DNA of 64,000 nucleotides from Candidatus Acidiferrales bacterium (GTDB lineage Bacteria; Bacteroidota; Ignavibacteria; Kryptoniales; JAKASW01), in NCBI GenBank assembly GCA_035515795.1, contig DATJAY010000011.1:1-64000 (forward strand), in the 5' to 3' direction. Shown here piece after piece: positions 8,175 through 63,622 of the stretch (positions are counted from its first letter, which is position 1; each line of letters starts with the position of its first letter). The notes under the pieces were generated by a model that worked only from the letters and a program-made list of their open reading frames with translations, did not search any database and was not told where the DNA came from. A program made the position numbers and the translations under genes.

Positions 8175-10589
8175 ATGCTGAAAAATTATTTGAAGATGGC
8201 ATTTAGGAATCTACTTAGACACAAGACCTTCTCTGTCATCAACATCGTCGGTCTTTCCATCGGTATCGCTGCATTCTTTTTGATAATTCAATACGTCACA
8301 TACGAACTCAGTTATGACAGTTTCAATAAAAATGGGAATAGAATTTATCGAATAAGAGATGATCGCATTTACACCGACAAGCATGACAAGAGCGCTGGCT
8401 GTCCACCGGCACTCGGTCCGACACTCAAGAAGGAATTCCCTGAGATTCTCGAGTCTGCAAGACTGCGTGGCACAACCGTTGTGTTTGTGGACAAGGATAA
8501 AAGAATTTCCGAGAATGTGGATAAGATATACTATGCCGAACCATCTTTTCTCAGAATATTTACATTCACTATGTTGGAGGGTGACGCGCGATCTGCCCTG
8601 GAGGACCCCTATTCTGTGATTGTCTCCAAATCGGTGGCAGAAAAATACTTTGGAGATGAGAACCCCGTCGGCAAGGTAGCCACGTTGGAGGACGACTATG
8701 GAACGCATGGCTACAAAGTTACAGGGGTATTCAAAGATGTGCCGCATAATTCCCACATTAAGTTCGATATGCTGCTTTCCTATAAAACGCTTGTTGCCCA
8801 GAATAGTCAGGCCGAGTACTATTGGGGTTGGAACGCGTTTAACACCTACGTTCTGCTTTCTCCTAATACTGATGCCGCAGCGCTCCAGGCAAAATTTCCC
8901 GCGATGGTGGAGAAGTACAAAGACTACGGAGATTCCTACAAGCGCGAATATCTTCTTCAGCCATTGAAGGATATACATCTCCATTCCAACCTGCGCTTCG
9001 AACCTGAAGTAAATGGAGATGCAAGAACCGTACAGTTTTTGTCGATCATAGCGGCATTTGTTCTCATCCTTGCATGGGTGAACTATGTCAATCTATCGAC
9101 TTGCAGATCGATGACTCGTGCAAGGGAAGTCGGTGTCAGGAAGGTATTGGGTTCTAATCGCTTCCAACTTGTCAAGCAATTCATGACCGAATCCATTCTG
9201 CTAAATACTATTGCGGTAGTCATGGCAGTCGGCATAGATGAGATCGCGTTGCCTTTCTTCAGCAGAATGACGGGAGACCCTCTGTCTCTTGGTTTGTTGA
9301 AGAGCAATTTGACCCTCCTCGTTTCGGTGTTTGCACTTGGAACCTTTTTGTCAGGACTTTATCCTGCATTCATACTTTCATCATTTAGTCCCCTTGCCGC
9401 TTTTAGGATCGTGCGCGGAAGGTTATCAAGAGGGATCGATTTGCGGAAAGGGCTCGTCATTTTCCAGTTTGCCATCTCTATTATCCTAATTGCATCAACC
9501 GCCATCGTGTATCGACAGGTCATGTTCATGCGCAATCAGGACTTGGGTGCAAACATAGACCAGGTGTTGGTATTGAAGGCACCAAGGATAACGGGCAACT
9601 ATATTTCAAGCTGCAATAGTTTCAAAGATGCACTAATGACATTCCCTTCGGTGAGAAACGTGTCCTCGTCGTCGACCATACCGGGAAGAGATTATTCAAA
9701 TTTTGCCAGTGACATACGGAGTCAAAGCAGTCAACCCGGTATGGGGACACAGGGCGTGTTCATAGATGTGGACGAGAATTATTTCAGTTTATATCAAATA
9801 CCGTTGGTTGCAGGCGAGAATTTTTCCCGTGAGTCGAGGCTGAGTAGAGAAGTCATTCTGAACGAGGAGGCAGTAGAAACATACGGGTTTCAAAATCCCA
9901 AAGACGCTGTCGACAAAAACCTGGTGCTAGGTGGGATTGACGGTCGGATAGTGAAAATAATCGGCGTGACCAAAGATTACCACCAGAGATCGCTCAAGAG
10001 CGCATTGCAGCCTGTCATTTTTGATCCAATCTATGCATCGGATATCAACCTTGCGAGATATTTTTCCATCAAGGTCGCTGGTGGGAATATCAAACAGACT
10101 ATGGACCAGATCAAAGCCAAGTGGGACGAGTTGTACCCGGACCAACCGTTCGAATATTATTTCCTCGACGATCTTTTCGACTCTCAGTATGAATCCGATC
10201 AACAGTTTGGGGAGGTCTTTGGTTTGTTTGCTTTTTTGGCAATCCTGATCAGCTGCATAGGGTTATTGGGAATGGCCTCCTATGCCAATGCTCAAAGGAC
10301 AAAAGAAATTGGGATTCGAAAAGTGGTGGGCGCATCCATCGGAGATATCATGGTTATGCTTATCACAGACTTTGCCAAGTGGGTAATGCTGGCAAACGTT
10401 ATCGCGTGGCCCGTGGCCTACTACGCGATGAAAGTGTGGCTGCAAGGATTTGCATACAAGGCTGATCTGAGTCCCTGGATATTCATCGTTTCAGGACTGA
10501 TCGCTTTGATGATTTCGATGCTGACTGTCGGCTTCAATACGGTCAAAGCCGCGACGGCAAATCCGGTCGAGAGTCTGCGGTATGAGTAA
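8175..10589 (+). CDS. ABC transporter permease, MacB_PCD/FtsX type (paralogue 4)
   Basis: An 804-residue member of the local permease family, the longest copy. The N-terminal helix is VINIVGLSIGIAAFFLIIQY; the first periplasmic domain ends near residue 285; coupling segments are RKVLGSN in the first FtsX half and RKVVGAS in the second; the protein ends NPVESLRYE. The ATG at 8175 is preceded by AACAGGAGAACGGT. In the N-terminal part (FxxIxY and ELSYDSFNKN) it groups with paralogue 5 rather than 1-3, so the array contains at least two subfamilies. No ATPase gene is adjacent. Confidence 0.9.
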   Translation: MLKNYLKMAFRNLLRHKTFSVINIVGLSIGIAAFFLIIQYVTYELSYDSFNKNGNRIYRIRDDRIYTDKHDKSAGCPPALGPTLKKEFPEILESARLRGTTVVFVDKDKRISENVDKIYYAEPSFLRIFTFTMLEGDARSALEDPYSVIVSKSVAEKYFGDENPVGKVATLEDDYGTHGYKVTGVFKDVPHNSHIKFDMLLSYKTLVAQNSQAEYYWGWNAFNTYVLLSPNTDAAALQAKFPAMVEKYKDYGDSYKREYLLQPLKDIHLHSNLRFEPEVNGDARTVQFLSIIAAFVLILAWVNYVNLSTCRSMTRAREVGVRKVLGSNRFQLVKQFMTESILLNTIAVVMAVGIDEIALPFFSRMTGDPLSLGLLKSNLTLLVSVFALGTFLSGLYPAFILSSFSPLAAFRIVRGRLSRGIDLRKGLVIFQFAISIILIASTAIVYRQVMFMRNQDLGANIDQVLVLKAPRITGNYISSCNSFKDALMTFPSVRNVSSSSTIPGRDYSNFASDIRSQSSQPGMGTQGVFIDVDENYFSLYQIPLVAGENFSRESRLSREVILNEEAVETYGFQNPKDAVDKNLVLGGIDGRIVKIIGVTKDYHQRSLKSALQPVIFDPIYASDINLARYFSIKVAGGNIKQTMDQIKAKWDELYPDQPFEYYFLDDLFDSQYESDQQFGEVFGLFAFLAILISCIGLLGMASYANAQRTKEIGIRKVVGASIGDIMVMLITDFAKWVMLANVIAWPVAYYAMKVWLQGFAYKADLSPWIFIVSGLIALMISMLTVGFNTVKAATANPVESLRYE

Positions 10590-10597
10590 CGTCGACG

Positions 10598-10612
10598 TCC
10601 GCCCCGGCGGGA
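10598..10612 (+). repeat. Short GC hairpin after permease 4
   Basis: TCCGCC and GGCGGGA form a small stem a few bases after the stop of permease 4, in the same position as the hairpins after the other permeases. The pairing is short and the call rests mainly on its recurrence. Confidence 0.35.
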
Positions 10613-10738
10613 TTGAGTTCTTACATTATGCATATATATGACGCTTGCGGCATGGAGAAGTCGAGATATGAGCAGGGTGGATACTATAATAGAAACATCT
10701 TCAAAACACAAAATGCGGTAGTCAAAGGAGGTATACAA

Positions 10739-11425
10739 ATGAAATCGCTAATTCTTTTTTTCTGTATCACATCATATTCGTGTGCATTCGCTCAAACGAA
10801 TTCAGATACTCCAGGCACTCGGATTAAAGTAGAGAGTCTGAAAAAGGGTGAATTAAGTATCTGGGACGTCTTTCAACAAAGGCGTTCAGTAAGAAAATAT
10901 AAACCTGATCCTATCCCGCCTGAAGATATATTAAAAATAATCGATGCGGCACGCATGGCTCCTACATCGGGGAATCAGCAGCCATGGAAATTTTTGATCA
11001 TAACGGATAAAAACAAGATAAATGAGATGAAGGATGCCTGCATTAAAGAGACAATAGAGTATTTAAAGAAAAACAACGAAGAGATAGACACTTCTAAAAA
11101 AGAAGAGATTACAAATGTGTTCAACGATTATTTCTCCGCCCCGGTTTATATAATTGTTTTGACGGATAATAATTCAATCTATTCATCTTATAACCACTGG
11201 GATGGACCGTTGGCTGCCGGATACCTGTTGCTTGCTGCAAGAGCTTTAGGGTATGGAACGGTCTTCATAACAGATTCGGTCCCTGAGAGTGTCACAAAAG
11301 AAGTTTTCAATATACCGGATAATTATATAAGAGTCTGTATTACTCCCGTCGGTATTCCTGTTGAATGGCCGCCGACACCTAAAAAGAAACCACTGAAAGA
11401 ATTTATCATAAATGAAACCTTTTGA
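10739..11425 (+). CDS. Exported nitroreductase-family protein
   Basis: A 228-residue protein of the FMN-dependent nitroreductase fold. After a signal peptide (MKSLILFFCITSYSCAFAQ, cleavage after the AFA/Q region near residue 18-19) comes the family's N-terminal motif RRSVRKYKPDPIP, then AARMAPTSGNQQPWKF (FMN phosphate and dimer-interface region), and a C-terminal GYGTVFITDSVPE helix region. The frame is open from 10613, but the ATG at 10739 has a strong ribosome binding site (AAAGGAGG) and starts the signal peptide, so it is chosen. Most nitroreductases are cytoplasmic; an export signal is unusual and would require flavin loading before Tat export or in the periplasm, although this signal looks Sec-type rather than Tat. 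Codons are visibly richer in A/T (many ATA, AAA) than the flanking permeases, which suggests a separate origin. Substrate unknown. Confidence 0.85.
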   Translation: MKSLILFFCITSYSCAFAQTNSDTPGTRIKVESLKKGELSIWDVFQQRRSVRKYKPDPIPPEDILKIIDAARMAPTSGNQQPWKFLIITDKNKINEMKDACIKETIEYLKKNNEEIDTSKKEEITNVFNDYFSAPVYIIVLTDNNSIYSSYNHWDGPLAAGYLLLAARALGYGTVFITDSVPESVTKEVFNIPDNYIRVCITPVGIPVEWPPTPKKKPLKEFIINETF

Positions 11426-53508: not shown

Positions 53509-55146
53509 CTAGTCTTTTTTAATGTTCGACTTCATCTTGACACGCGCGTATATAAACGAAACGACGAGCAAGACAATGCCGAGTACCATGAAAGATACAA
53601 TACGAAAGACGGGTTCGAGTTTCGTCGTTCCTATCACAAGCAGATAGAGCGCCGTTCCGAGAAAAGTCAACAGCGCCATCCATCTATATTTTATGTTCTT
53701 CAATATCAGGCTGATAATGTAATAGATTATCGCCACACCGAGCCATGATAGACTCACAAATTCTGTCGGGACAGTGTGGTATAAAGCGTAAGGGATGATC
53801 AAGAAGGCAGATACAAGATAAGCATTCCGCATCAGATCCGTCTTGAGCTCTAATCTGTGCCTTTGCCAGTTAAGGACGCGTGCGCTGAGGAGCGCCACGA
53901 CACCGAAGCTGATACCCGTGATGCTGACGGTGCCCGCCAGGGTTAGGTAGGCAAGAAAGATCAACACGTATATGATGAAATTGGTTACCACTATGAATTT
54001 GGATCTAAACCAAACTGCCGTGGATACGACGAGAAGACTTTGCCAGCAAAGCCAGATGAAGAAATCGGGAGTTTTGAAGCCTGCCACTATTGCTACGCTA
54101 AGCGCGGCATAACCCGTCATCGCGTAGAAGAAAGTCCGGAACCTGCTGTTCAGCTGTGTCCAATATGTCGCGGCAAGAATGATAAACAAGGTAGAGGCGA
54201 TCAAGTTAGAGGAGGGAAGTCGATCTTGGAATTTTGTTACCGTGATGATGAAATAAAGACCATATCCTCCGAGGCAATTGAGAATCGAACTCAGGAGTAT
54301 TACGCTGTCCTCTTTGATGTTTTTCCCGCGCAGGTAACTCGCAGTTGCGAAGATCAGTATCCAGAGAAGAACAAGGAGAGCTGCGACGAAAGATGATCCG
54401 CGAAGCTCAACTCGATTGCCAATCAGCGGATTGTTGATGAACCAGATGAAATGAGCCAGGTATGTCGATACAATTCCATAGACGACAAGACTGTGCCATC
54501 CATTTTTGACCGCTAGGTAAACCGTCACCGCAGCCACAACAGCTGTAATCATGAAAAAAGGAAGATCCATGTTTGCCAATAGCGCGGTTACATATCCCAT
54601 AGTTAGACTGACGGCGGCGAGATAGATAGACTTTCTGGAAAGTGAAATGGTCAGGCTAACCGCACAGACGAAAAGGAGCAGAGCGATCTCGACAATCAGG
54701 GCCTTTAGTGCGGGGTCGTTCGTCAGAAAATGAAGCCGTAGTGTCGCGAAGAACAAGAGAACGAGTCCGCTTCCGAGGAGGTAGCCCGCAATGAATGGAG
54801 ATGACCTGCTAAGATATCGGCACAGAAGAAGCACAGCCATGGCGAGGGCACACCCTAGTGCCGGGGCAAACAGCGGACTAATGCTTCGATACGGTTGAAG
54901 GAGGAGAAAGACCGCGCCCGTTATTAAAGCAACAATCCCAACCTTCGCGAACCAATAGAGACCGATCTGCAGCTCAAGTGTTTCTTTCAATGGCGTGTTG
55001 TCGGCAGTCGGTGCGTCGAGTTTCTGCTCGAGTCCGATGGGCTGCAGGTTGAGGCGCTGCTCGATGCGGGAGATTCTCTCCTCAAGATTTGCGAGAATCT
55101 GGCTCAACAACTCAAAGCTTTCCGGTTTTGTTTCTTGATCGCTCAT
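53509..55146 (-). CDS. DUF2339 multi-spanning membrane protein
   Basis: About 545 residues. The N-terminus is soluble with a short coiled coil (ILANLEERISRIEQRLNLQP), then an unbroken series of about fifteen hydrophobic helices runs to a basic C-terminus. The pattern, including YWFAKVGIVALITGAVFLLL followed by SISPLFAPALGCALA, matches the DUF2339 family of large polytopic proteins of unknown function. The ATG at 55146 with TTGGAG at 8 nt is preferred to the upstream start at 55164. No functional link to the neighbouring bc operon is shown, although both lie on the same strand. Confidence 0.8.
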   Translation of the reverse strand: MSDQETKPESFELLSQILANLEERISRIEQRLNLQPIGLEQKLDAPTADNTPLKETLELQIGLYWFAKVGIVALITGAVFLLLQPYRSISPLFAPALGCALAMAVLLLCRYLSRSSPFIAGYLLGSGLVLLFFATLRLHFLTNDPALKALIVEIALLLFVCAVSLTISLSRKSIYLAAVSLTMGYVTALLANMDLPFFMITAVVAAVTVYLAVKNGWHSLVVYGIVSTYLAHFIWFINNPLIGNRVELRGSSFVAALLVLLWILIFATASYLRGKNIKEDSVILLSSILNCLGGYGLYFIITVTKFQDRLPSSNLIASTLFIILAATYWTQLNSRFRTFFYAMTGYAALSVAIVAGFKTPDFFIWLCWQSLLVVSTAVWFRSKFIVVTNFIIYVLIFLAYLTLAGTVSITGISFGVVALLSARVLNWQRHRLELKTDLMRNAYLVSAFLIIPYALYHTVPTEFVSLSWLGVAIIYYIISLILKNIKYRWMALLTFLGTALYLLVIGTTKLEPVFRIVSFMVLGIVLLVVSFIYARVKMKSNIKKD

Positions 55147-55662
55147 TTGTGCTTCTCCAATCATTCTGCCCCGTCTTTAATATGCCCGAACTTTCACCGT
55201 CGGGATGTCAGGATTCACGAGTGAGGAACTTTGCCAGTCAAACAGGCATAAGAACCGGCGAGTTTAGTTTAGATGATAATAGAAGTGACGCATCGGATTT
55301 TTGCGTTAGCAAAGGCCGGTATCCTCCAATCTTGATGGTTCGCTGCAAATCGGACTGACGTTGAAAATATTAGTGAACGATTGAGCAATTGTCAAGGTTT
55401 CCATGGTGGTTAGACTTCGACTAAATCTGTGGTACTAATGACCGACCGCATATTGATTGGCGAGGTCATTCCGATTAAATTTCATCTGGATTTGATTGAC
55501 CCCTGCTTGCGGGATATTTGAGAGAAGAATATTTTTTGGCGTAAGAATTTTCTCATGATCAATTATGCGGGCTGTAACTTTGATCCTTTTTCCACGTTCA
55601 ATATAAATGAAACTTTGGGCTGCTAAAACTAATGTGTGACTTTCCGAAATCCAGATGAATTC
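55147..55662 (+). other. Intergenic stretch upstream of the radical SAM operon
   Basis: About 515 bases between divergent genes; it should contain both promoters. T/A-rich segments occur near 55500-55630, but I see no box pair that I would defend, no RNA gene and no short peptide gene with a good start that could be a RiPP precursor. Confidence 0.4.
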
Positions 55663-56856
55663 ATGATTAAAAGGGCCAGCACTTTTTCCGTCATCCGTGC
55701 GCTTGCTTCAAATGTAAACCAGATACGTGTGAAGCCATCCATCAATTGGTTTTTCATTAAGTATCTCCGCAAGTTCAATATCATCAACGTAGGCGGGAAA
55801 CTCATCATTCATTCGCATCTACCGCCGATCAATAGTAGAGCCTACAAACGGTTCATCGCCGAACATCTGCTCAACAAAAATGCCGGCCCATCGCACGCGC
55901 AAATCGGAGTGACCAACGCGTGTCCGCAGGATTGCGAATACTGTTACAGCAAAAACAAAAAAGGGAAGGTGATGGAAACCGGGACGATCATCCGGCTGAT
56001 AAACGATCTGAAGGAGATGGGCGTCTTCTGGATCGGATTCACCGGCGGCGAGCCGCTTCTCAACAAGGACATCGTGCGAATTGTGGAAAGCGCAAGCGAT
56101 CGGTGCGCCGTGAAACTTTTCACAACCGGAAGCACGCTGACGGAACGACTCGCTCGCGATCTGAAGAACGCAGGTCTCTCTTCGGTTTCCGTCAGCTTAG
56201 ATCATTGGAAAGAATCGGAGCACGATAAGGTGAGACGATATCCGGGTGCATTCAAGATTGCGTTGAATGCATTGGAGGTGTTCAAGAGCATCGGAGATAT
56301 CCATGTCGGTATTTCGGCGGTACTTTCAAAAGAAATGGTACGACGGCGGCAGGTCGAGGAATTTCTGGGATTTCTTGAGAAACTCGAAATCCACGAAGCA
56401 TGGCTGAGCGAATCCAAGCCTGCAATCCCACAGATGTGGAATGACAATTTTGTAATAAATGAAGAAGAACGCCTCGAGCTCTGCAAGTTGCAAAATGAGT
56501 ATAACAAAAGAGGACGGATGACTGTCAATTATCTCGGCCACTTTGAATGCAAGGAACATTTCGGCTGCGCGGCAGCAAACAAGATGATCTATATAGATGC
56601 GTGCGGCAATGTGAGTCCATGCGTGTTCATGCCGGTCTCCTTCGGGAATGTGAACCAAGAATCAGTTCGGGACATCTATAGTGATATGAAGCGTCGATTC
56701 CCCACAGAGAATCGGTGTTTTGTCAATGCTAATTATCCTCTCCTCCGGAAAAATTATCATGACCGGCTGCCGTTGAGCGAAGAGGAGACGCTGGCCATGA
56801 TGGAAGAAGCCAGGTTCGCTCCCATGGCGAAGTTTTTTCAACTTCATTACACGTGA
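55663..56856 (+). CDS. Radical SAM/SPASM-like protein
   Basis: About 397 residues. The radical SAM cluster motif is ACPQDCEYCYSKNKKGK (CxxxCxxC); the GGEP motif that contacts SAM appears as IGFTGGEPLLNKDI; VSVSLDHWKESEHDKVR follows. The C-terminal part has a SPASM-like Cys set (HFECKEHFGCAAANKM, IDACGNVSPCVFMP and ENRCF) that should bind one or two additional [4Fe-4S] clusters, as in peptide- or cofactor-modifying enzymes. The ATG at 55663 is chosen; a GTG at 55636 is possible. It begins a tight operon with a membrane protein, an uncharacterised protein and a flavoprotein. Substrate unknown. Confidence 0.88.
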   Translation: MIKRASTFSVIRALASNVNQIRVKPSINWFFIKYLRKFNIINVGGKLIIHSHLPPINSRAYKRFIAEHLLNKNAGPSHAQIGVTNACPQDCEYCYSKNKKGKVMETGTIIRLINDLKEMGVFWIGFTGGEPLLNKDIVRIVESASDRCAVKLFTTGSTLTERLARDLKNAGLSSVSVSLDHWKESEHDKVRRYPGAFKIALNALEVFKSIGDIHVGISAVLSKEMVRRRQVEEFLGFLEKLEIHEAWLSESKPAIPQMWNDNFVINEEERLELCKLQNEYNKRGRMTVNYLGHFECKEHFGCAAANKMIYIDACGNVSPCVFMPVSFGNVNQESVRDIYSDMKRRFPTENRCFVNANYPLLRKNYHDRLPLSEEETLAMMEEARFAPMAKFFQLHYT

Positions 56857-56863
56857 GGGAGAC

Positions 56864-57274
56864 ATGACACTGGCAATCTATAGGTACGTCAGCATCATCA
56901 TGGCGATAATCTTTGGCGTCGTAGGAATTCTTTTCTTGTTCATGAGCAGCGACGTTCTCGTCTTTTTTAATCGGATGTCGGGTTTGCTCGGCATGGAGCA
57001 GGGCGAATCCGCCGGAGAACACTTCTATGTCATCCTCGCGGTTGCATACATGTATGTCGTGGCGCTCCTTGCATTTCTGATGTACCACGACCCGAGAAAT
57101 GCCTCGTTTCCTTTTATTCTTTTCAACGCGAAGGTTGCGAGTTCGATCGTGTCGGCAGCTACTTTTCTGTTCGGCAGGCATTTGCTCATATATATTACAA
57201 ATTGCATCGTCGATGGATTAATCGGTCTAATGGTATTTGCGATGTACCGATGCGTAAGGAGAGTTTGTCAATGA
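56864..57274 (+). CDS. Four-helix membrane protein of unknown function
   Basis: A 136-residue inner-membrane protein with four helices (IIMAIIFGVVGILFLFM; FYVILAVAYMYVVALLAFLM; ILFNAKVASSIVSAATFLF; LIYITNCIVDGLIGLMVFAM). It has no Cys or His pattern that suggests cofactors. It starts 7 nt after the radical SAM stop and overlaps the next gene by 4 nt (ATGA), so it belongs to the operon and may hold the pathway at the membrane. I do not recognise a family. Confidence 0.65.
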   Translation: MTLAIYRYVSIIMAIIFGVVGILFLFMSSDVLVFFNRMSGLLGMEQGESAGEHFYVILAVAYMYVVALLAFLMYHDPRNASFPFILFNAKVASSIVSAATFLFGRHLLIYITNCIVDGLIGLMVFAMYRCVRRVCQ

Positions 57275-57816
57275 ACTTTCGACTTTATTTGATGAAACTT
57301 TTTCTGCCGGTAAATTTGAAGAAAGAAAAACTGCATGAATTGTTTGGAGTGACCGCCGCGGCATTTCAGACGACTCCTCCTGTCGTAGAAGGGCTGCGTT
57401 TCAATGATCTTCTTCAAGAGTACGCTACATTTACGCGCGCAGCCGCAATGCAACAAATCATCAAGGGGGAAGATGTGAGTCTGGTGATGCAGCGATTATA
57501 TGATGGAGCGTACCGCATCGGCGAGGAACTGCGCGAGGAGATGAGAATTCGTTCGAGGAAGGACGCGATGAAGGCAGCAAGACTGCTGTATCGCGCCATG
57601 GGAATAGATTTTCACTGCAGCGGCTCGGGTGAAGTGGGAATCGCGCGTTGCTATTTTAGCACCTTCTACCCGCCCGAGGTATGCTGGATAATTTCATCTC
57701 TGGATGAAGGGATTATTGCCGGTCTGACAGATGGCGGAAGGCTATGGTTTGTCTCGCGAATCACGGAGGGAAATAACTCGTGCGTTGGACAAATTGAGTT
57801 TTTAAAGAACCCATAG
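57271..57816 (+). CDS. Uncharacterised protein, weakly like ATC-hydrolase/V4R-type domains
   Basis: A 181-residue soluble protein. The N-terminal half is helical (LLQEYATFTRAAAMQQIIKG, VMQRLYDGAYRIGEELREEM); the C-terminal half is mixed alpha/beta with conserved-looking Cys residues (FHCSGSGEVGIARCYFS, PPEVCWIISSLDEGIIAGL, and a closing GNNSCVGQIEF). The closing Gly-Asn-x-x-Cys-x-x-x-Phe strand and overall plan recall L-2-amino-thiazoline-4-carboxylate hydrolase-like and 4-vinyl-reductase-like ligand-binding domains; this is a weak visual resemblance only. The ATG at 57271 overlaps the membrane protein stop; the flavoprotein gene starts 2 nt downstream. Confidence 0.5.
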   Translation: MNFRLYLMKLFLPVNLKKEKLHELFGVTAAAFQTTPPVVEGLRFNDLLQEYATFTRAAAMQQIIKGEDVSLVMQRLYDGAYRIGEELREEMRIRSRKDAMKAARLLYRAMGIDFHCSGSGEVGIARCYFSTFYPPEVCWIISSLDEGIIAGLTDGGRLWFVSRITEGNNSCVGQIEFLKNP

Positions 57817-57818
57817 GC

Positions 57819-59111
57819 ATGAAGAAGGCAATAGTCGTCGGTACCGGTGCAGGGGGTGCCACGGCGGCAAAAGAGCTATGCGGCAAATTCGATGTGACGA
57901 TCATAGAGGCTGGAGGAAAATTTCATCCCTTCGGAGTTAGCCTGGAGTTTCTCGGAAAAGCGAGACATACGGGACTCTTCTTCGATGAACGGGAAATCCA
58001 GTTCATGTTTCCGGCGATGAGGATTCAAAAGACCGCGGATCGGATGTCTCTCGTGAAAGGAATCGGGTTAGGAGGAACAACGACACTTGCTACGGCAAAT
58101 GCTGTAAGATGCGACGGCGAACTTAAAGCGATAGGCATTTGCCTTGATGAAGAATTTGAGGAGCTCAAGAATGAAATCCCGATAACTACGGAGCACAGTG
58201 AAATCTGGAGAAGGTCGACCCGCCGGCTCTTTGAAATCTGCGAGGAGATGAACCTTGATCCGCAGGTGATGCCGAAAATGATCGACTATAAAAAATGCAA
58301 ACGGTGCGGCCATTGCGTCCTCGGTTGCCCGGAGGGCGCGAAGTGGGACACACGACAGTTCATCGATGAAGTCGTCTCACGCGGCGCGCTTCTTGAGACG
58401 AACTGCAGAGTTAAACAGGTGGTGATTTCACACGGCAAAGCGACCGGCGTCATGGTACAGCAGGGATGGCTCAAGAAATTCCTGCCTGCGGATCTGGTCG
58501 TACTTGCTGCCGGAGGATTCGGCACTCCGATTATCCTTTCAAACTCCGGAATCGAGATCGAACCGAGACTTTTCGTTGATCCTGTTTTATGCGTGGCCGC
58601 GGAAAGCAAGGGAGTATTCCAAAACAAAGAAGTCCTTATGCCGTTTGTAGTTCAACGGGAGCATTTTATCATTTCTCCGTATTTCGATCAGCTGAGTTTC
58701 TTCTTTAACCGTGATTGGAGAATCCCCGCTGAAAATATCGCCTCGTTGATGGTAAAACTCGCAGATGAGAATGTCGGACGCTTAAATGATGGAGCCTTCG
58801 AAAAGAATCTGACCTCTCTTGATAAGGAGAGGCTCCGCGGGGGAGTCGAGATTTGTGCGGAGATACTCTCGAGATTTGGAGTCTCGAAAGAAAATATATT
58901 TTTAGGAACCTTGAACGCCGGTCATCCCGGTGGCATGCTGCCGTTGACGTCACTTGAAGCGGAAACATTTCATCATGGTCGTCTGCCGGAAAACCTGTAC
59001 ATTGCCGATGCGACTCTCTTCCCGCGCTCGCTCGGCAATCCGCCGATCCTTACGATCATGGCCATGGCAAAGCGTGTCAGCAGGCTCTGCGTCGAAAAAT
59101 TCGCGGCATAA
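57819..59111 (+). CDS. GMC-type FAD oxidoreductase with ferredoxin-like cysteine cluster
   Basis: A 430-residue flavoprotein. The N-terminal FAD-binding motif is AIVVGTGAGGATAAKEL (GxGxxG) with the ribose-binding Glu in VTIIEAGG; GIGLGGTTTLATANAV is the second GMC signature. A segment at about 158-175 has four Cys (CKRCGHCVLGCPEGAKWDT), as in ferredoxins and some alcohol-oxidase-type GMC proteins. The C-terminal region TLNAGHPGGMLPL and ADATLFPRSLGNPP matches the GMC C-terminal domain, whose catalytic His is plausibly that of AGHPGG. It should oxidise an alcohol or similar group. It is the last gene of the radical SAM operon. Confidence 0.85.
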   Translation: MKKAIVVGTGAGGATAAKELCGKFDVTIIEAGGKFHPFGVSLEFLGKARHTGLFFDEREIQFMFPAMRIQKTADRMSLVKGIGLGGTTTLATANAVRCDGELKAIGICLDEEFEELKNEIPITTEHSEIWRRSTRRLFEICEEMNLDPQVMPKMIDYKKCKRCGHCVLGCPEGAKWDTRQFIDEVVSRGALLETNCRVKQVVISHGKATGVMVQQGWLKKFLPADLVVLAAGGFGTPIILSNSGIEIEPRLFVDPVLCVAAESKGVFQNKEVLMPFVVQREHFIISPYFDQLSFFFNRDWRIPAENIASLMVKLADENVGRLNDGAFEKNLTSLDKERLRGGVEICAEILSRFGVSKENIFLGTLNAGHPGGMLPLTSLEAETFHHGRLPENLYIADATLFPRSLGNPPILTIMAMAKRVSRLCVEKFAA

Positions 59112-59289: not shown

Positions 59290-61365
59290 ATGGCATCACT
59301 TCGTTCGTTTCTTATTATTGCTTCGCTGTCTCTCGTGTTTACAAGTTCTTTGTTCGCGCAATGGGTTCAGACTAATGGACCTTACGGCGGCGAAATCAAA
59401 TGTTACGCTTTAAGCGGGACGAATATCTTTGCCGGGTCCTGGGGCGGCGGCGTTTTTTTGTCAACCAACAGCGGCACAAGCTGGACCGCTGTCAGCTCCG
59501 GGTTGACGAGCCGTGATATCTGCGCGCTTGCCATCTCGGGAACAAACCTGTTCGCAGGAACCTCGGATGGCGGCGTCTTCTTGTCGACAAACAACGGTGC
59601 GAGCTGGAGCGCTGTGAATTCGGGATTGACGAACCTTAATGTTCGCACACTTGCCGTCTCAGGCACGGATCTCTTTGCGGGGACTGCCGACGGCGTCTTT
59701 CTCTCTACCGATGGCGGCACAAGCTGGACGTCAGCTGGGCTGACGAGTCGCAGCGTTACCGGTCTTGTCGTCAGCGGTTCGTATTTAATTGCGGGAACCG
59801 ATGGAGGCATTTTCAGATCAACCGATGGTGGAACAAGCTGGACCCTTCAGACCTCAGCTACATATTCTTATGTCTCCGCATTCGCGGTTTCCGGCGCGAA
59901 AATTTTCGCAGGGTACCAGAGCGGTACGGTTCTTCTCTCTACAGATAATGGATTAAGCTGGACTCAATTAGATACGGGCTTCACATGGAATCCCTATTTT
60001 CCGCCGCAAGTCTCCGCGCTTGCAGTGAGCGGAGCCAATATTTTTGCCGGACTTTCGACGGGCGGACTTATCTCATCCACCGACAACGGGACAACATGGG
60101 CCCTTACCGGCGCAGGTCTGCCGGACGCCGGTATCAATGCTATCACCATATCAGGACCAAATATTTTTGCAGGAACAGACGACGGTGCCTTCCTTTCCAC
60201 CGATAGCGGGGCAAACTGGATCCGAATCGACAGAGGCTTGATGAACGCTACCGTGAGTGCGCTGGCCGCCGCAGGGGATTATCTTTTCGCCGGAACTTAT
60301 CCCGAGGAAACAGGCGTTTTTTGCACATCGGATGGCGGCACAACATGGACTTCAACCTGCACAACTTCTTCACATGTGAATGCTCTTGCTGTTTCGGGGA
60401 AGAATCTATTTGTCGGCACCGATGGAGGCATGCTGAGTTCCACCGACAACGGGACGAGTTGGACTGACATAACCGCGGGATTAACCAGCAGTGCTATCTT
60501 CAGTCTCGCCGTCGAGGGCACGAATCTATTCGTCGGAACCGACGGCGGAGTCTTTCTTTCCACCGACAATGGCACAAGCTGGACTGCAGTTAATTCAGGC
60601 TTGTCGAACGTTTCTGTCAACGCTTTTGCTGTACGCGACTTGACTCTCTTTGCGGGATCTTCAAGCGGAGGCGTTTTCCGGTTGACCAACGGCAGCGCAG
60701 GCTGGGTTGCCGTCGATTCAGGCCTTACGAATCAGTATGTTTATGCGCTTGCAGTTTTAGGTTCAAATGTTTTTGCGGGGACTTGTGGCGGTGGTGTTTA
60801 TCTCACGGCTAACGGCGGCAAGAGCTGGACGCCAGTTCGTTCAGGCTTGACTAACGGTGTCGTGTTGTGCTTTGCCGTCTCAGGCACGAATCTCTTCGCG
60901 GGAACCTGCGGAAGCGGAGTGTTCCTCACGACGAACGGAGGCGCTAGCTGGTCCGCAGTCGATTCAGGATTGACTAGCAGTTTCGTCTATTCGCTTGCAG
61001 TCTCCGGTTCGAATCTCTTCGCAGGGACTGAAGGTGGAGTCTGGAGGAGGCCGCTGTCTGAGATGATTACCGATGTCAAGGTCAATGGAGACAATGTTCC
61101 GCTGCAATTCTCACTCCGCCAGAATTATCCTAACCCGTTCAATCCTTCAACCACCATCGGCTATGACCTGCCTTCCAACAGCTTCGTCTCATTGAAAGTT
61201 TACGATGTGCTCGGAAGGGAAATCGAGACATTGGTGAATGAGCACCAGGTTGCAGGAACTCATTCGGTGACGTTCAACGCAAGCAGCTTGCCTAGCGGAG
61301 TGTACTTCTATAGACTGCGAGCGGGGAACGAAATTGAAAGCAAGAAATTAGTCCTGATCAAGTGA
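59290..61365 (+). CDS. Secreted Asp-box beta-propeller protein with type IX sorting domain (copy 1)
   Basis: A 691-residue exported protein. Signal peptide MASLRSFLIIASLSLVFTSS, ending near LFAQ; then 13 repeats of about 42-46 residues, each with an Asp-box (STDNGTSWT and variants) followed by a SGLT-V-ALAVSGTNLFAGT-like strand pair. One repeat (LTNGSAGWV) is degenerate. Thirteen units fit two beta-propellers of six or seven blades. The C-terminal ~85 residues are a type A T9SS sorting domain (QNYPNPFNPSTTIGYDLP, LKVYDVLGREIETLVN, GVYFYRL, ending KKLVLIK). The start follows GAAAGGAAATTATC. The protein is probably secreted to the cell surface; its ligand is unknown. Asp-boxes stabilise blade turns and do not imply sialidase activity; no catalytic Arg triad is visible. 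Confidence 0.88.
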   Translation: MASLRSFLIIASLSLVFTSSLFAQWVQTNGPYGGEIKCYALSGTNIFAGSWGGGVFLSTNSGTSWTAVSSGLTSRDICALAISGTNLFAGTSDGGVFLSTNNGASWSAVNSGLTNLNVRTLAVSGTDLFAGTADGVFLSTDGGTSWTSAGLTSRSVTGLVVSGSYLIAGTDGGIFRSTDGGTSWTLQTSATYSYVSAFAVSGAKIFAGYQSGTVLLSTDNGLSWTQLDTGFTWNPYFPPQVSALAVSGANIFAGLSTGGLISSTDNGTTWALTGAGLPDAGINAITISGPNIFAGTDDGAFLSTDSGANWIRIDRGLMNATVSALAAAGDYLFAGTYPEETGVFCTSDGGTTWTSTCTTSSHVNALAVSGKNLFVGTDGGMLSSTDNGTSWTDITAGLTSSAIFSLAVEGTNLFVGTDGGVFLSTDNGTSWTAVNSGLSNVSVNAFAVRDLTLFAGSSSGGVFRLTNGSAGWVAVDSGLTNQYVYALAVLGSNVFAGTCGGGVYLTANGGKSWTPVRSGLTNGVVLCFAVSGTNLFAGTCGSGVFLTTNGGASWSAVDSGLTSSFVYSLAVSGSNLFAGTEGGVWRRPLSEMITDVKVNGDNVPLQFSLRQNYPNPFNPSTTIGYDLPSNSFVSLKVYDVLGREIETLVNEHQVAGTHSVTFNASSLPSGVYFYRLRAGNEIESKKLVLIK
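61138..61196 (+). repeat. 59-bp block identical to 63374-63432
   Basis: Within the sorting-domain coding region of copy 1, 59 consecutive bases are identical to those at 63374-63432 in copy 2, while flanking bases differ at silent and replacement sites. This points to recent recombination or gene conversion between sorting-domain segments. Confidence 0.8.
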
Positions 61366-61420
61366 GACGGTGGGTTTGAACTTCTATTTCAATTAAATTC
61401 TTAAGAAAGGAGAAGAGGGT

Positions 61421-63622
61421 ATGTGGACAGCTCGTTGGATTTTGTTTGTTTGCCTTGCCACGATGCTGCAACCGAAGTTGCACGCTCAATGGTTTTCAAC
61501 AACGGGGAGCTTTGGTTCTATAATCACCTGTTTAGCGATCAGCGATACGGATATCTTTGTCGGAACACAAACCGGTGTTTTTCTTTCAACCAACGATGGA
61601 CTGACATGGACCGCGGAAAATTCTGGATTGCCGACAAATTTCGATTCCGGAATTCTTGCCGTAAGCGGCGATACCCTGTTTGTCTCAGAATATACCGACA
61701 TTTTTCGCTCCAGCAATAGCGGCTCAAGCTGGAACGCTATCAACTTTTCGTTCACTACCGGCGCCAGCTCGATTGCCTTTAGCGGAAAAAATATTTTTGT
61801 TGGGACGTGGGGGGGCGGCGGTATTTATCGTTCAACCGACAACGGAGAAAACTGGGCCCCAATCAATAACGGAATAGTCATAGATACCACGGCTCCTCAA
61901 CAGAGTGTAAACGTGCTGACGATCTGTGGCGCAAACCTCTACGCCGGAACTTCCTGGGGTGGCGTTTACAAATCAACAGACAACGGCGACACCTGGACTG
62001 CTACAGGGTTAACAAAAGCAAATGTACTAACCATGATTGCAGCCCCGAACGGAAGTATCTACGCGATAACGGATTTCACGAATCTCGATGGCATTCATGT
62101 TGGAGGCAACATTCTTCTTTCTACTGACGCTGGCGCCACATGGACCGAGATTGATTCCGGACTGGGAAGCAACTATGCAATGTCGCTTGCAGCGGTCCGG
62201 ACCACTCCGGGCGGAATGGATCTTTTTGTCGGGACGGGCAGCAGAGGCGTTTTTCTTTCTACAGATAATGGCGGATCATGGATACAATCTGGATTGCCAA
62301 ACACATGGATTACTGCCCTCGCTGCAAGTTCCGATGTAACAGGAGGCACGAAGTTGATTGCCGGTGATTTTAGCGGCGCCATAATGGGAGGCAGCGGTGA
62401 TGTCTTTCTCACGACAGATAACGGGAGAAATTGGAGGACGAGCACCGTCAACACTCCTGTCAGCGCTCTCACTATGAGCCCCAATGGTGTGGGTGGAGCC
62501 GATCTCTACGCTGACGCAGCGATGCTTTTTCTCCATAGTTCAGATAATGGTACAAGCTGGACAGCCACCGGATTTCCTAAGATGGCATTCACTCCACCAT
62601 TGGCTATCTTTCCTTCGTCGGATGGGTCGGGCGGGGCCGCTATTTTTGTTGGGATCGACAGCGTTTTCCATTCGACCGATAACGGTACGAGCTGGAGAGC
62701 AACCGCTGATTCTGGTCTGAATATCTTAACAGGCTCAAGCATTTCTTCCCTAGCAGCCTGCGGAACGAGCCTTTTTGCGGGTCTTAGCGGTAATGGCGGA
62801 ATTTTCCTTTCGACAAACTACGGTGGAAGCTGGTCACCTGTCCCCGGACTGCCGAGGTGTGACGTAGCTTCGTTTGTCTCATGTAGCGGTAACCAGTTTG
62901 TGGCCACAGACTCGGGCGTTTATCTCTCGACGGACAGCGGCAACAATTGGTTAGCGGTCAATTCCGGATTAAAGAATCTGGATGTCAACGCTCTTGCAGT
63001 GATTGGTGGTAATATCTTTGCCGGCACTAACGGCAACGGCGTTTTCCGCAGTACTAATGACGGGGCCAATTGGATTGCCGCAGGCTTGAAGACTTTGGAC
63101 GTCTGCGCTTTTGCTGCGGTCGACTCGAGCCTTTTCGCCGGAACTTCCACAGGCGGTGTTTATCTCAGTACGGACATGGGAGCACATTGGAATCCGGTGA
63201 ATAGCGGGTTGACTAACAGTGTCATCAACGCTCTCATCCAAAATGGCAAGAATATTTTTGCCGGGACGGGAAGCGGAATATGGCGGCGGCCCCTTTCGGA
63301 GATGATAACCAGCGTCAATGAACGTACACAGCTTCCCGCGAGTTTTGCACTCTTTCAAAATTATCCTAACCCATTCAATCCTTCAACCACCATCGGCTAT
63401 GACCTGCCTTCCAACAGCTTCGTCTCATTGAAGATTTATGATGTGCTTGGAAGAGAAGTCGAAACGTTGGTGAATGAACGCCAGGCAGCAGGGAGTCATT
63501 CAGTCACGTTCAACGCTTCCAATTTACCTAGCGGAGTGTACTTCTATCGCTTGCAGGTCATAGATCCCGTTCGCGGGACCGGGAGCTACACAGCGACAAA
63601 GAAACTTTTACTGCTGAAATAG
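61421..63622 (+). CDS. Secreted Asp-box beta-propeller protein with type IX sorting domain (copy 2)
   Basis: A 733-residue paralogue of the preceding gene: signal peptide (WILFVCLATMLQPKLHAQ), 13 Asp-box repeats (for example STDNGENWA, STDNGDTWT, STDSGNNWL), the same linker (IWRRPLSEMIT), and a T9SS sorting domain (QNYPNPFNPSTTIGYDLP to KKLLLLK). The repeats are more divergent than in copy 1, with several extended loops (TTPGGMDLFVGTGSRG, SDGSGGAAIFVG). It lies 55 nt downstream of copy 1, with AAAGGAGA upstream of the ATG, so the two are probably cotranscribed. Confidence 0.88.
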   Translation: MWTARWILFVCLATMLQPKLHAQWFSTTGSFGSIITCLAISDTDIFVGTQTGVFLSTNDGLTWTAENSGLPTNFDSGILAVSGDTLFVSEYTDIFRSSNSGSSWNAINFSFTTGASSIAFSGKNIFVGTWGGGGIYRSTDNGENWAPINNGIVIDTTAPQQSVNVLTICGANLYAGTSWGGVYKSTDNGDTWTATGLTKANVLTMIAAPNGSIYAITDFTNLDGIHVGGNILLSTDAGATWTEIDSGLGSNYAMSLAAVRTTPGGMDLFVGTGSRGVFLSTDNGGSWIQSGLPNTWITALAASSDVTGGTKLIAGDFSGAIMGGSGDVFLTTDNGRNWRTSTVNTPVSALTMSPNGVGGADLYADAAMLFLHSSDNGTSWTATGFPKMAFTPPLAIFPSSDGSGGAAIFVGIDSVFHSTDNGTSWRATADSGLNILTGSSISSLAACGTSLFAGLSGNGGIFLSTNYGGSWSPVPGLPRCDVASFVSCSGNQFVATDSGVYLSTDSGNNWLAVNSGLKNLDVNALAVIGGNIFAGTNGNGVFRSTNDGANWIAAGLKTLDVCAFAAVDSSLFAGTSTGGVYLSTDMGAHWNPVNSGLTNSVINALIQNGKNIFAGTGSGIWRRPLSEMITSVNERTQLPASFALFQNYPNPFNPSTTIGYDLPSNSFVSLKIYDVLGREVETLVNERQAAGSHSVTFNASNLPSGVYFYRLQVIDPVRGTGSYTATKKLLLLK
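63374..63432 (+). repeat. 59-bp block identical to 61138-61196
   Basis: Partner of the identical block in the sorting-domain region of copy 1; it covers the codons for FNPSTTIGYDLPSNSFVSL. Confidence 0.8.

Follow-up and report, generated by a model that had tools for sequence, protein, structure and literature searches.

What do the four adjoining, translationally coupled open reading frames (ORFs) at positions 55663-59111 (+ strand) of the window, the whole 64,000-nucleotide stretch of Candidatus Acidiferrales DNA analyzed here, do together, and do they belong together at all? They encode a radical SAM enzyme (rSAM), a four-helix membrane protein (4TM), a 181-residue protein (p181), and a GMC-type flavoprotein (hereafter GMC). 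A preliminary description had read them as one operon with spacings of 7, -4, and 2 nt, whose products act together. The coordinates and gaps are as claimed, with the -4 spacing being an ATGA overlap, and the existence of the operon is confirmed. The order rSAM-4TM-p181-GMC is kept in 31 of 76 loci from outside the genus, with tight spacing and many -4 overlaps, which supports joint action. The hosts of this four-gene order include Bacteroidota, Bacillota/Clostridia (among them Ca. Formimonas warabiya and Dethiobacter), Calditrichales (Calditrichota), KSB1, Aminicenantes, Acidobacteriota, Spirochaetota, Atribacterota, one Ignavibacteriae metagenome-assembled genome (MAG), and others. The cassette spans about ten bacterial phyla, mostly from anaerobic habitats, and clearly reaches beyond the close relatives to which it might have been confined. 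Such conservation in the same order, together with the invariant catalytic residues, far exceeds chance, and the cross-phylum conservation rules out a chance adjacency or lineage-specific junk. Because most of the loci are MAGs, individual taxon assignments could be mistaken, although the overall pattern is secure.

These loci were collected by scanning genome contigs with a GMC alignment, which detected 174 relatives; the best 80 were fetched, and their flanks were searched with hidden Markov models (HMMs), whose local E-values are relative to the fetched loci. A scan with a single GMC sequence gave no match, while the alignment-based scan succeeded. Taxon coverage rests on two GMC peptide patterns, so the cassette is more abundant than these counts show and its distant members escape detection; 94 weaker relatives lie outside the sample. 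A search for GMC and p181 in 396 genomes of the phylum gave good scores only within the genus, indicating that the cassette is rare in this phylum sample. Among plasmids, a search turned up a single, distant GMC from Photobacterium that lacks p181. In each of the 18 genomes tested, the p181 family is represented by one copy. No description of this gene combination was found in the open-access literature searched.

The four genes are not equally constant. The p181 gene lies directly upstream of the GMC gene in 72-73 of the 76 loci; L075 (1-1054) is the only locus that has more than 1 kb of upstream sequence and a GMC without a recognizable p181. Most loci that lack rSAM and 4TM (class II; 37 loci) carry p181-GMC beside a CsaB-like PS_pyruv_trans gene and a gene for a NAD_binding_4/AMP-binding fusion of ~930 aa, in which a 'male sterility'/thioester-reductase (fatty-acyl reductase, FAR) domain precedes an AMP-ligase and the TGxTGFLG, YExSK, and YTSGTTG motifs are intact. 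Class II hosts are Lachnospiraceae, other Clostridia, Chloroflexi, and Bacteroidales. The full-length fusion was found in none of 26 genomes of class I (those with rSAM), where the matches are mostly ordinary acyl-CoA ligases, and no FAR-like protein resembling ElbD, a FAR-acyl-CoA synthetase (ACS), was found in the window's genome (best PF07993 match 57.9 bits, in frames of ~340 aa). Conversely, an rSAM homologue was found at E<=1e-60 in none of 22 class II genomes, although the rSAM family is readily found in class I loci. Judged from these searches, the two front ends are mutually exclusive by genome. The GMC tree needs several class changes, and monophyly of class II GMC is rejected in the approximately unbiased (AU) test (p-AU 3e-212), indicating repeated exchange of the front ends. 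The front end lies downstream of p181-GMC in L043 and L050 and upstream in the other class II loci, which, together with the rejected monophyly, indicates that the partnership arose on more than one occasion. Because the front ends exclude each other and were swapped repeatedly, p181 and GMC form the constant core and the front end is the variable part.

Two further genes were seen beside the cassettes. A gene that by eye encodes a DtxR/MntR-like regulator lies 3' of the class II cassette in eight clostridial loci (L080, L086, L089, L090, L095, L099, L100, and L102), hinting at metal- or iron-linked regulation. A gene for a CrtI/carotenoid-isomerase-like FAD enzyme lies at or near the upstream side of the class I cassette in L033, L035 (5226-6773), and L044 (4305-5801).

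The preliminary description placed both 4TM and p181 outside known families. For 4TM this holds: no Pfam family matched, and its AlphaFold2 (AF2) model, a confident four-helix protein (mean predicted local distance difference test score, pLDDT, 92.6) with invariant K90, N113, D117, F17, F35, and Y62 in the family, has no fold match in the PDB by Foldseek. In contrast, p181 is a divergent member of the V4R/ATC_hydrolase superfamily, as indicated by its predicted alpha/beta fold and C-terminal cluster of three Cys. The AF2 model (pLDDT 83.7) has as top Foldseek matches Bet3/TRAPPC3 (one entry palmitoyl-bound), archaeal TRAPPC3, PoxR/MopR sensor domains, and V4R. The set C127, C138, C171, S142, D145, and R163 is invariant in 72 of 72 homologues, and a three-Cys cluster is common to V4R and ATC hydrolase (PMC5847659). 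Four of seven p181 family members give sub-cut-off matches to ATC_hydrolase PF14196 (best E 0.017); none of the seven reaches the curated cut-off, the window's p181 gives no match, and neither does a PF14196 profile search of the window's genome. Profile alignment of p181 with true PF14196 proteins in hhalign gives a probability of 73% and E 3e-5, compared with <0.5% and E 0.15-0.4 for controls. The sole match of p181 in a PDB sequence search, a glucocorticoid-receptor zinc finger, was judged spurious.

The GMC product, described earlier as a GMC oxidoreductase with a Cys cluster, is confirmed as such. It matches Pfam GMC_oxred_N at 1.9e-20 (74 bits, cut-off 23) and the C-terminal domain weakly (17.4, cut-off 24.6), and it has the conserved FAD-site residues G8, G10, and G13 and a catalytic-type H369. 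Its ferredoxin-like CxxCxxCxxxC motif (C160, C163, C166, and C170), C258, and H369 are invariant in 83 of 83 homologues, and the motif suggests that the protein carries a [4Fe-4S] cluster. The rSAM matches Pfam Radical_SAM (PF04055; 2.4e-21) and SPASM (PF13186; 3e-7). All six of its relevant Cys, C87/C91/C94 of CxxxCxxC and the C-terminal C302, C320 (in the GX4C motif), and C352, are invariant in 33 of 33 homologues and follow the twitch/SPASM subgroup pattern (CxxxCxxC with auxiliary-cluster Cys in CX9-15GX4C...C), and an N-terminal extension of ~80 residues carries an invariant HSHLPPxNSxAY. The preliminary description called the enzyme SPASM-type, and the Pfam match bears this out; however, because only three C-terminal Cys are invariant across the 33 homologues, the C-terminus appears to be of the single-cluster twitch type and not a full SPASM. 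Neither rSAM nor GMC reaches any NCBIfam equivalog model.

We consider it possible, at a probability of roughly 40%, that the p181-GMC core and its front end carry out the redox processing of a long-chain lipid alcohol or aldehyde. In this scheme p181 would bind the hydrophobic, probably long-chain lipid-type alcohol or aldehyde, as hydrophobic-ligand binding is thought typical of V4R domains (PMC2253512), and hand it to GMC, which would transfer a hydride between FAD and the carbon of the hydroxyl/aldehyde group, in either direction, with H369 as the base. Electrons would pass in or out via the putative [4Fe-4S] cluster of GMC with an anaerobic carrier as partner, a route that fits the mostly anaerobic hosts. 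In class I, rSAM and 4TM would generate the substrate from a membrane lipid, while in class II the acid-activating AMP-ligase/NAD(P)H reductase fusion (acid to aldehyde or alcohol) and the CsaB-like pyruvyltransferase relative would supply it. The best clue to the chemistry comes from the class II front end, which fits an alcohol/aldehyde reaction of GMC, and by analogy the ElbD-like FAR-ACS order of the fusion (PMC9131029) favors a lipid. On this basis we tentatively propose an undescribed anaerobic pathway across phyla for a modified (for example ether-, aldehyde-, or hydroxy-type) membrane lipid, in which rSAM-4TM and the acyl-activating reductase fusion may be equivalent and both feed a V4R-GMC finishing enzyme. 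The earlier suggestion that the operon acts on a small molecule at the membrane is probably right. Several points weigh against the lipid scheme. We infer the lipid nature of the substrate indirectly, the acid taken by the class II fusion could be non-lipid, and the scheme leaves the pyruvyltransferase-like partner without a clear task. No specific closeness of the rSAM to known lipid rSAMs is evident, since Tes scores just 51.8 bits and is outscored by the TIGR04053, NirJ2, GeoRSP, AhbD, and MoaA models. The Foldseek matches of p181 (E ~1e-3, TM ~0.5) are good for fold kinship and weak for the transfer of function. Finally, a TonB-dependent receptor beside the cassette in congeners could mean that the substrate is imported and not a membrane component.

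This receptor bears on the history of the locus. The block occurs in 7 of 12 other genomes of the family, all of one genus, in the same order and with rSAM and GMC at 52-60% identity. One congener locus, L021, has no 4TM gene; there (9401-10807) a truncated rSAM is fused in frame to p181, and in L022 (9054-9437) ~60 residues are deleted inside p181, with decay or assembly error possible in both. In another congener (L017:4198-4761), a 187-aa protein with an export-like N-terminus, a weak DUF6144 match, and a CGVGC motif is encoded directly 3' of GMC. In the rSAM and GMC trees, the window copy and L023 (Bacteroidetes MAG CTSoil_038) form a strongly supported group apart from the congeners, and trees constrained to place the window copy among the congeners are rejected (p-AU 4e-4 and 1e-6, respectively); most likely, therefore, the window's genome received the whole cassette in one piece by horizontal transfer, at a new location. 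In five congeners a gene for a TonB-dependent receptor of ~832 aa lies directly upstream of rSAM, and some of these overlap the rSAM start by 4 nt; in a sixth congener (L018/L058) a match to the receptor's C-terminus, read as a remnant, precedes rSAM. L016 (8910-9155) has an internally deleted receptor directly before the cassette, in which the signal peptide and first repeat are joined out of frame to the C-terminal tail '...VYQFTILPVIGIEAEF'. The window locus has no receptor, and its genome keeps one alone (C12:198877-201342; L133:8836-11346), adjoining an agmatine-deiminase-like gene, a neighbor common to relatives, with no cassette remnant. Congener G404 likewise has the receptor and no cassette, and no TonB receptor was found at the cassette loci of other phyla, which rules out the receptor as an obligate part.

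These data also bear on a rather unlikely alternative, in which the cassette serves the uptake and catabolic or detoxifying modification of an exogenous hydrophobic compound (steroid, terpenoid, or aromatic), imported through TonB in diderms and then oxidized or reduced. The congeneric receptors with their remnants, the relationship of GMC to cholesterol oxidase and MftG, and the CrtI-like neighbor in three class I loci are consistent with it. However, the receptor is missing from the loci of other phyla and solitary in two congeners including the window's genome, many hosts are monoderm Clostridia, and the class II front end, with acid activation and reduction, looks biosynthetic. It is improbable that p181 is instead a ligand-sensing regulator of GMC and neither a substrate carrier nor an enzyme subunit; sensing is the main function of V4R/PoxR/MopR domains (PMC2253512), but p181 lacks an effector domain, is coupled 1:1 with GMC, and keeps its invariant Cys/Ser/Asp/Arg set. 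Even less credit is due to a modification of tetrapyrroles (heme or bilin), with rSAM acting on a side chain, p181 holding the macrocycle, and the receptor importing heme. NirJ2 and AhbD are among the best-scoring rSAM models, the V4R fold is named after bacteriochlorophyll 4-vinyl reductase, the ATC_hydrolase-annotated tolI sits in the tolyporphin cluster (PMC8401325), and congeners have the TonB receptor; yet the rSAM likeness is that of the generic radical SAM core, an acyl-AMP ligase/reductase makes no sense as a replacement for rSAM on a tetrapyrrole, and no tetrapyrrole genes were recognized among the recurring neighbors.

The preliminary description had likened the operon to systems for redox cofactors derived from ribosomally synthesized and post-translationally modified peptides (RiPPs), such as mycofactocin, where rSAM modifies a peptide and GMC re-oxidizes the cofactor. 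It had itself seen no precursor peptide, and the homologous loci agree upstream: in 27 class I loci, the 900 nt preceding rSAM yielded no conserved small ORF, a downstream small ORF is common to one pair of close relatives only, and there are no RRE/PqqD profile matches. Although rSAM with its C-terminal auxiliary-cluster domain and GMC share one operon, as in mft clusters, and MftG models are the best, if weak, NCBIfam matches of GMC, this reading is largely refuted, since every cut-off is missed by far (rSAM against MftC TIGR03962, 68.5 bits, cut-off 265; GMC against MftG TIGR03970/TIGR04542, 33.9 of 387 and 36.9 of 400 bits), no precursor was found, and the p181-GMC core occurs without rSAM in 37 loci.

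The layout of the locus is given below. The DUF2339 gene (53509-55164) upstream is divergently oriented, and promoter-like matches in the intergenic region are not above those in shuffled sequences. Downstream (59290-63622) lies a tandem pair of genes for paralogous BNR/Sortilin-like repeat proteins, both ending in type IX sorting/secretion tails; the pair is not among the recurring cassette neighbors at other loci.

Table 1. Features of the operon and its upstream region in the window.
Feature	Position	Strand	Remarks
Radical SAM enzyme (rSAM)	55663-56856	+	397 aa; Pfam Radical_SAM and SPASM
Four-helix integral membrane protein (4TM)	56864-57274	+	136 aa; outside Pfam families; AF2 model
p181, V4R/ATC_hydrolase/Bet3-fold protein	57271-57816	+	181 aa; predicted to hold a hydrophobic ligand
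GMC-type FAD oxidoreductase	57819-59111	+	430 aa; Pfam GMC_oxred_N and Fer4 motif
Intergenic region, DUF2339 gene to operon	55165-55662		Presumed promoter site; conserved peptide ORF absent

The cassette is thus a cross-phylum, single-copy, horizontally mobile redox unit, and it brings together a V4R-fold protein, the constant companion of a flavoenzyme, and a membrane protein whose family has no known relatives. That rSAM is naturally exchanged for an acid reductase at the front end leaves few possible roles for the shared core. If the product is a lipid, the cassette bears on how anaerobic bacteria build the unusual membrane lipids that serve as environmental biomarkers.

Compared with known systems, the closest parallel to class II is the myxobacterial ether-lipid operon elb, whose ElbD has the order FAR-ACS-acyl carrier protein (ACP)-acyltransferase (PMC9131029): the class II fusion, with FAR and then acyl-ligase on one polypeptide, matches the N-terminal half of ElbD in domain order. 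Unlike ElbD, it has no ACP or acyltransferase domains, class I (the window) has no FAR-ACS, and elb as described has no GMC, V4R, or rSAM. The mycofactocin cluster (MftC and MftG; PMC11778925) also combines rSAM and GMC genes, and the C-terminus of GMC is homologous to the MftG models, whereas no MftA, MftB, peptidase, or glycosyltransferase was seen with the cassette, and its GMC carries the added CxxCxxCxxxC motif and is tied to p181. With GMC alcohol dehydrogenases and oxidases (cholesterol oxidase and choline dehydrogenase), GMC shares the FAD GxGxxG, an HPxGG-like catalytic-His region, and the C-terminal GNPP..T motif, and it differs from them in the built-in four-Cys motif, the invariant C258, and the constant p181 neighbor. 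Finally, p181 resembles the V4R/ATC_hydrolase (PF14196)/TRAPP Bet3 superfamily in its predicted fold, three-Cys cluster, and weak PF14196 and profile matches, whereas it stays below the PF14196 cut-off and constitutes a distinct family that is met only beside GMC, outside any ATC-hydrolase context.

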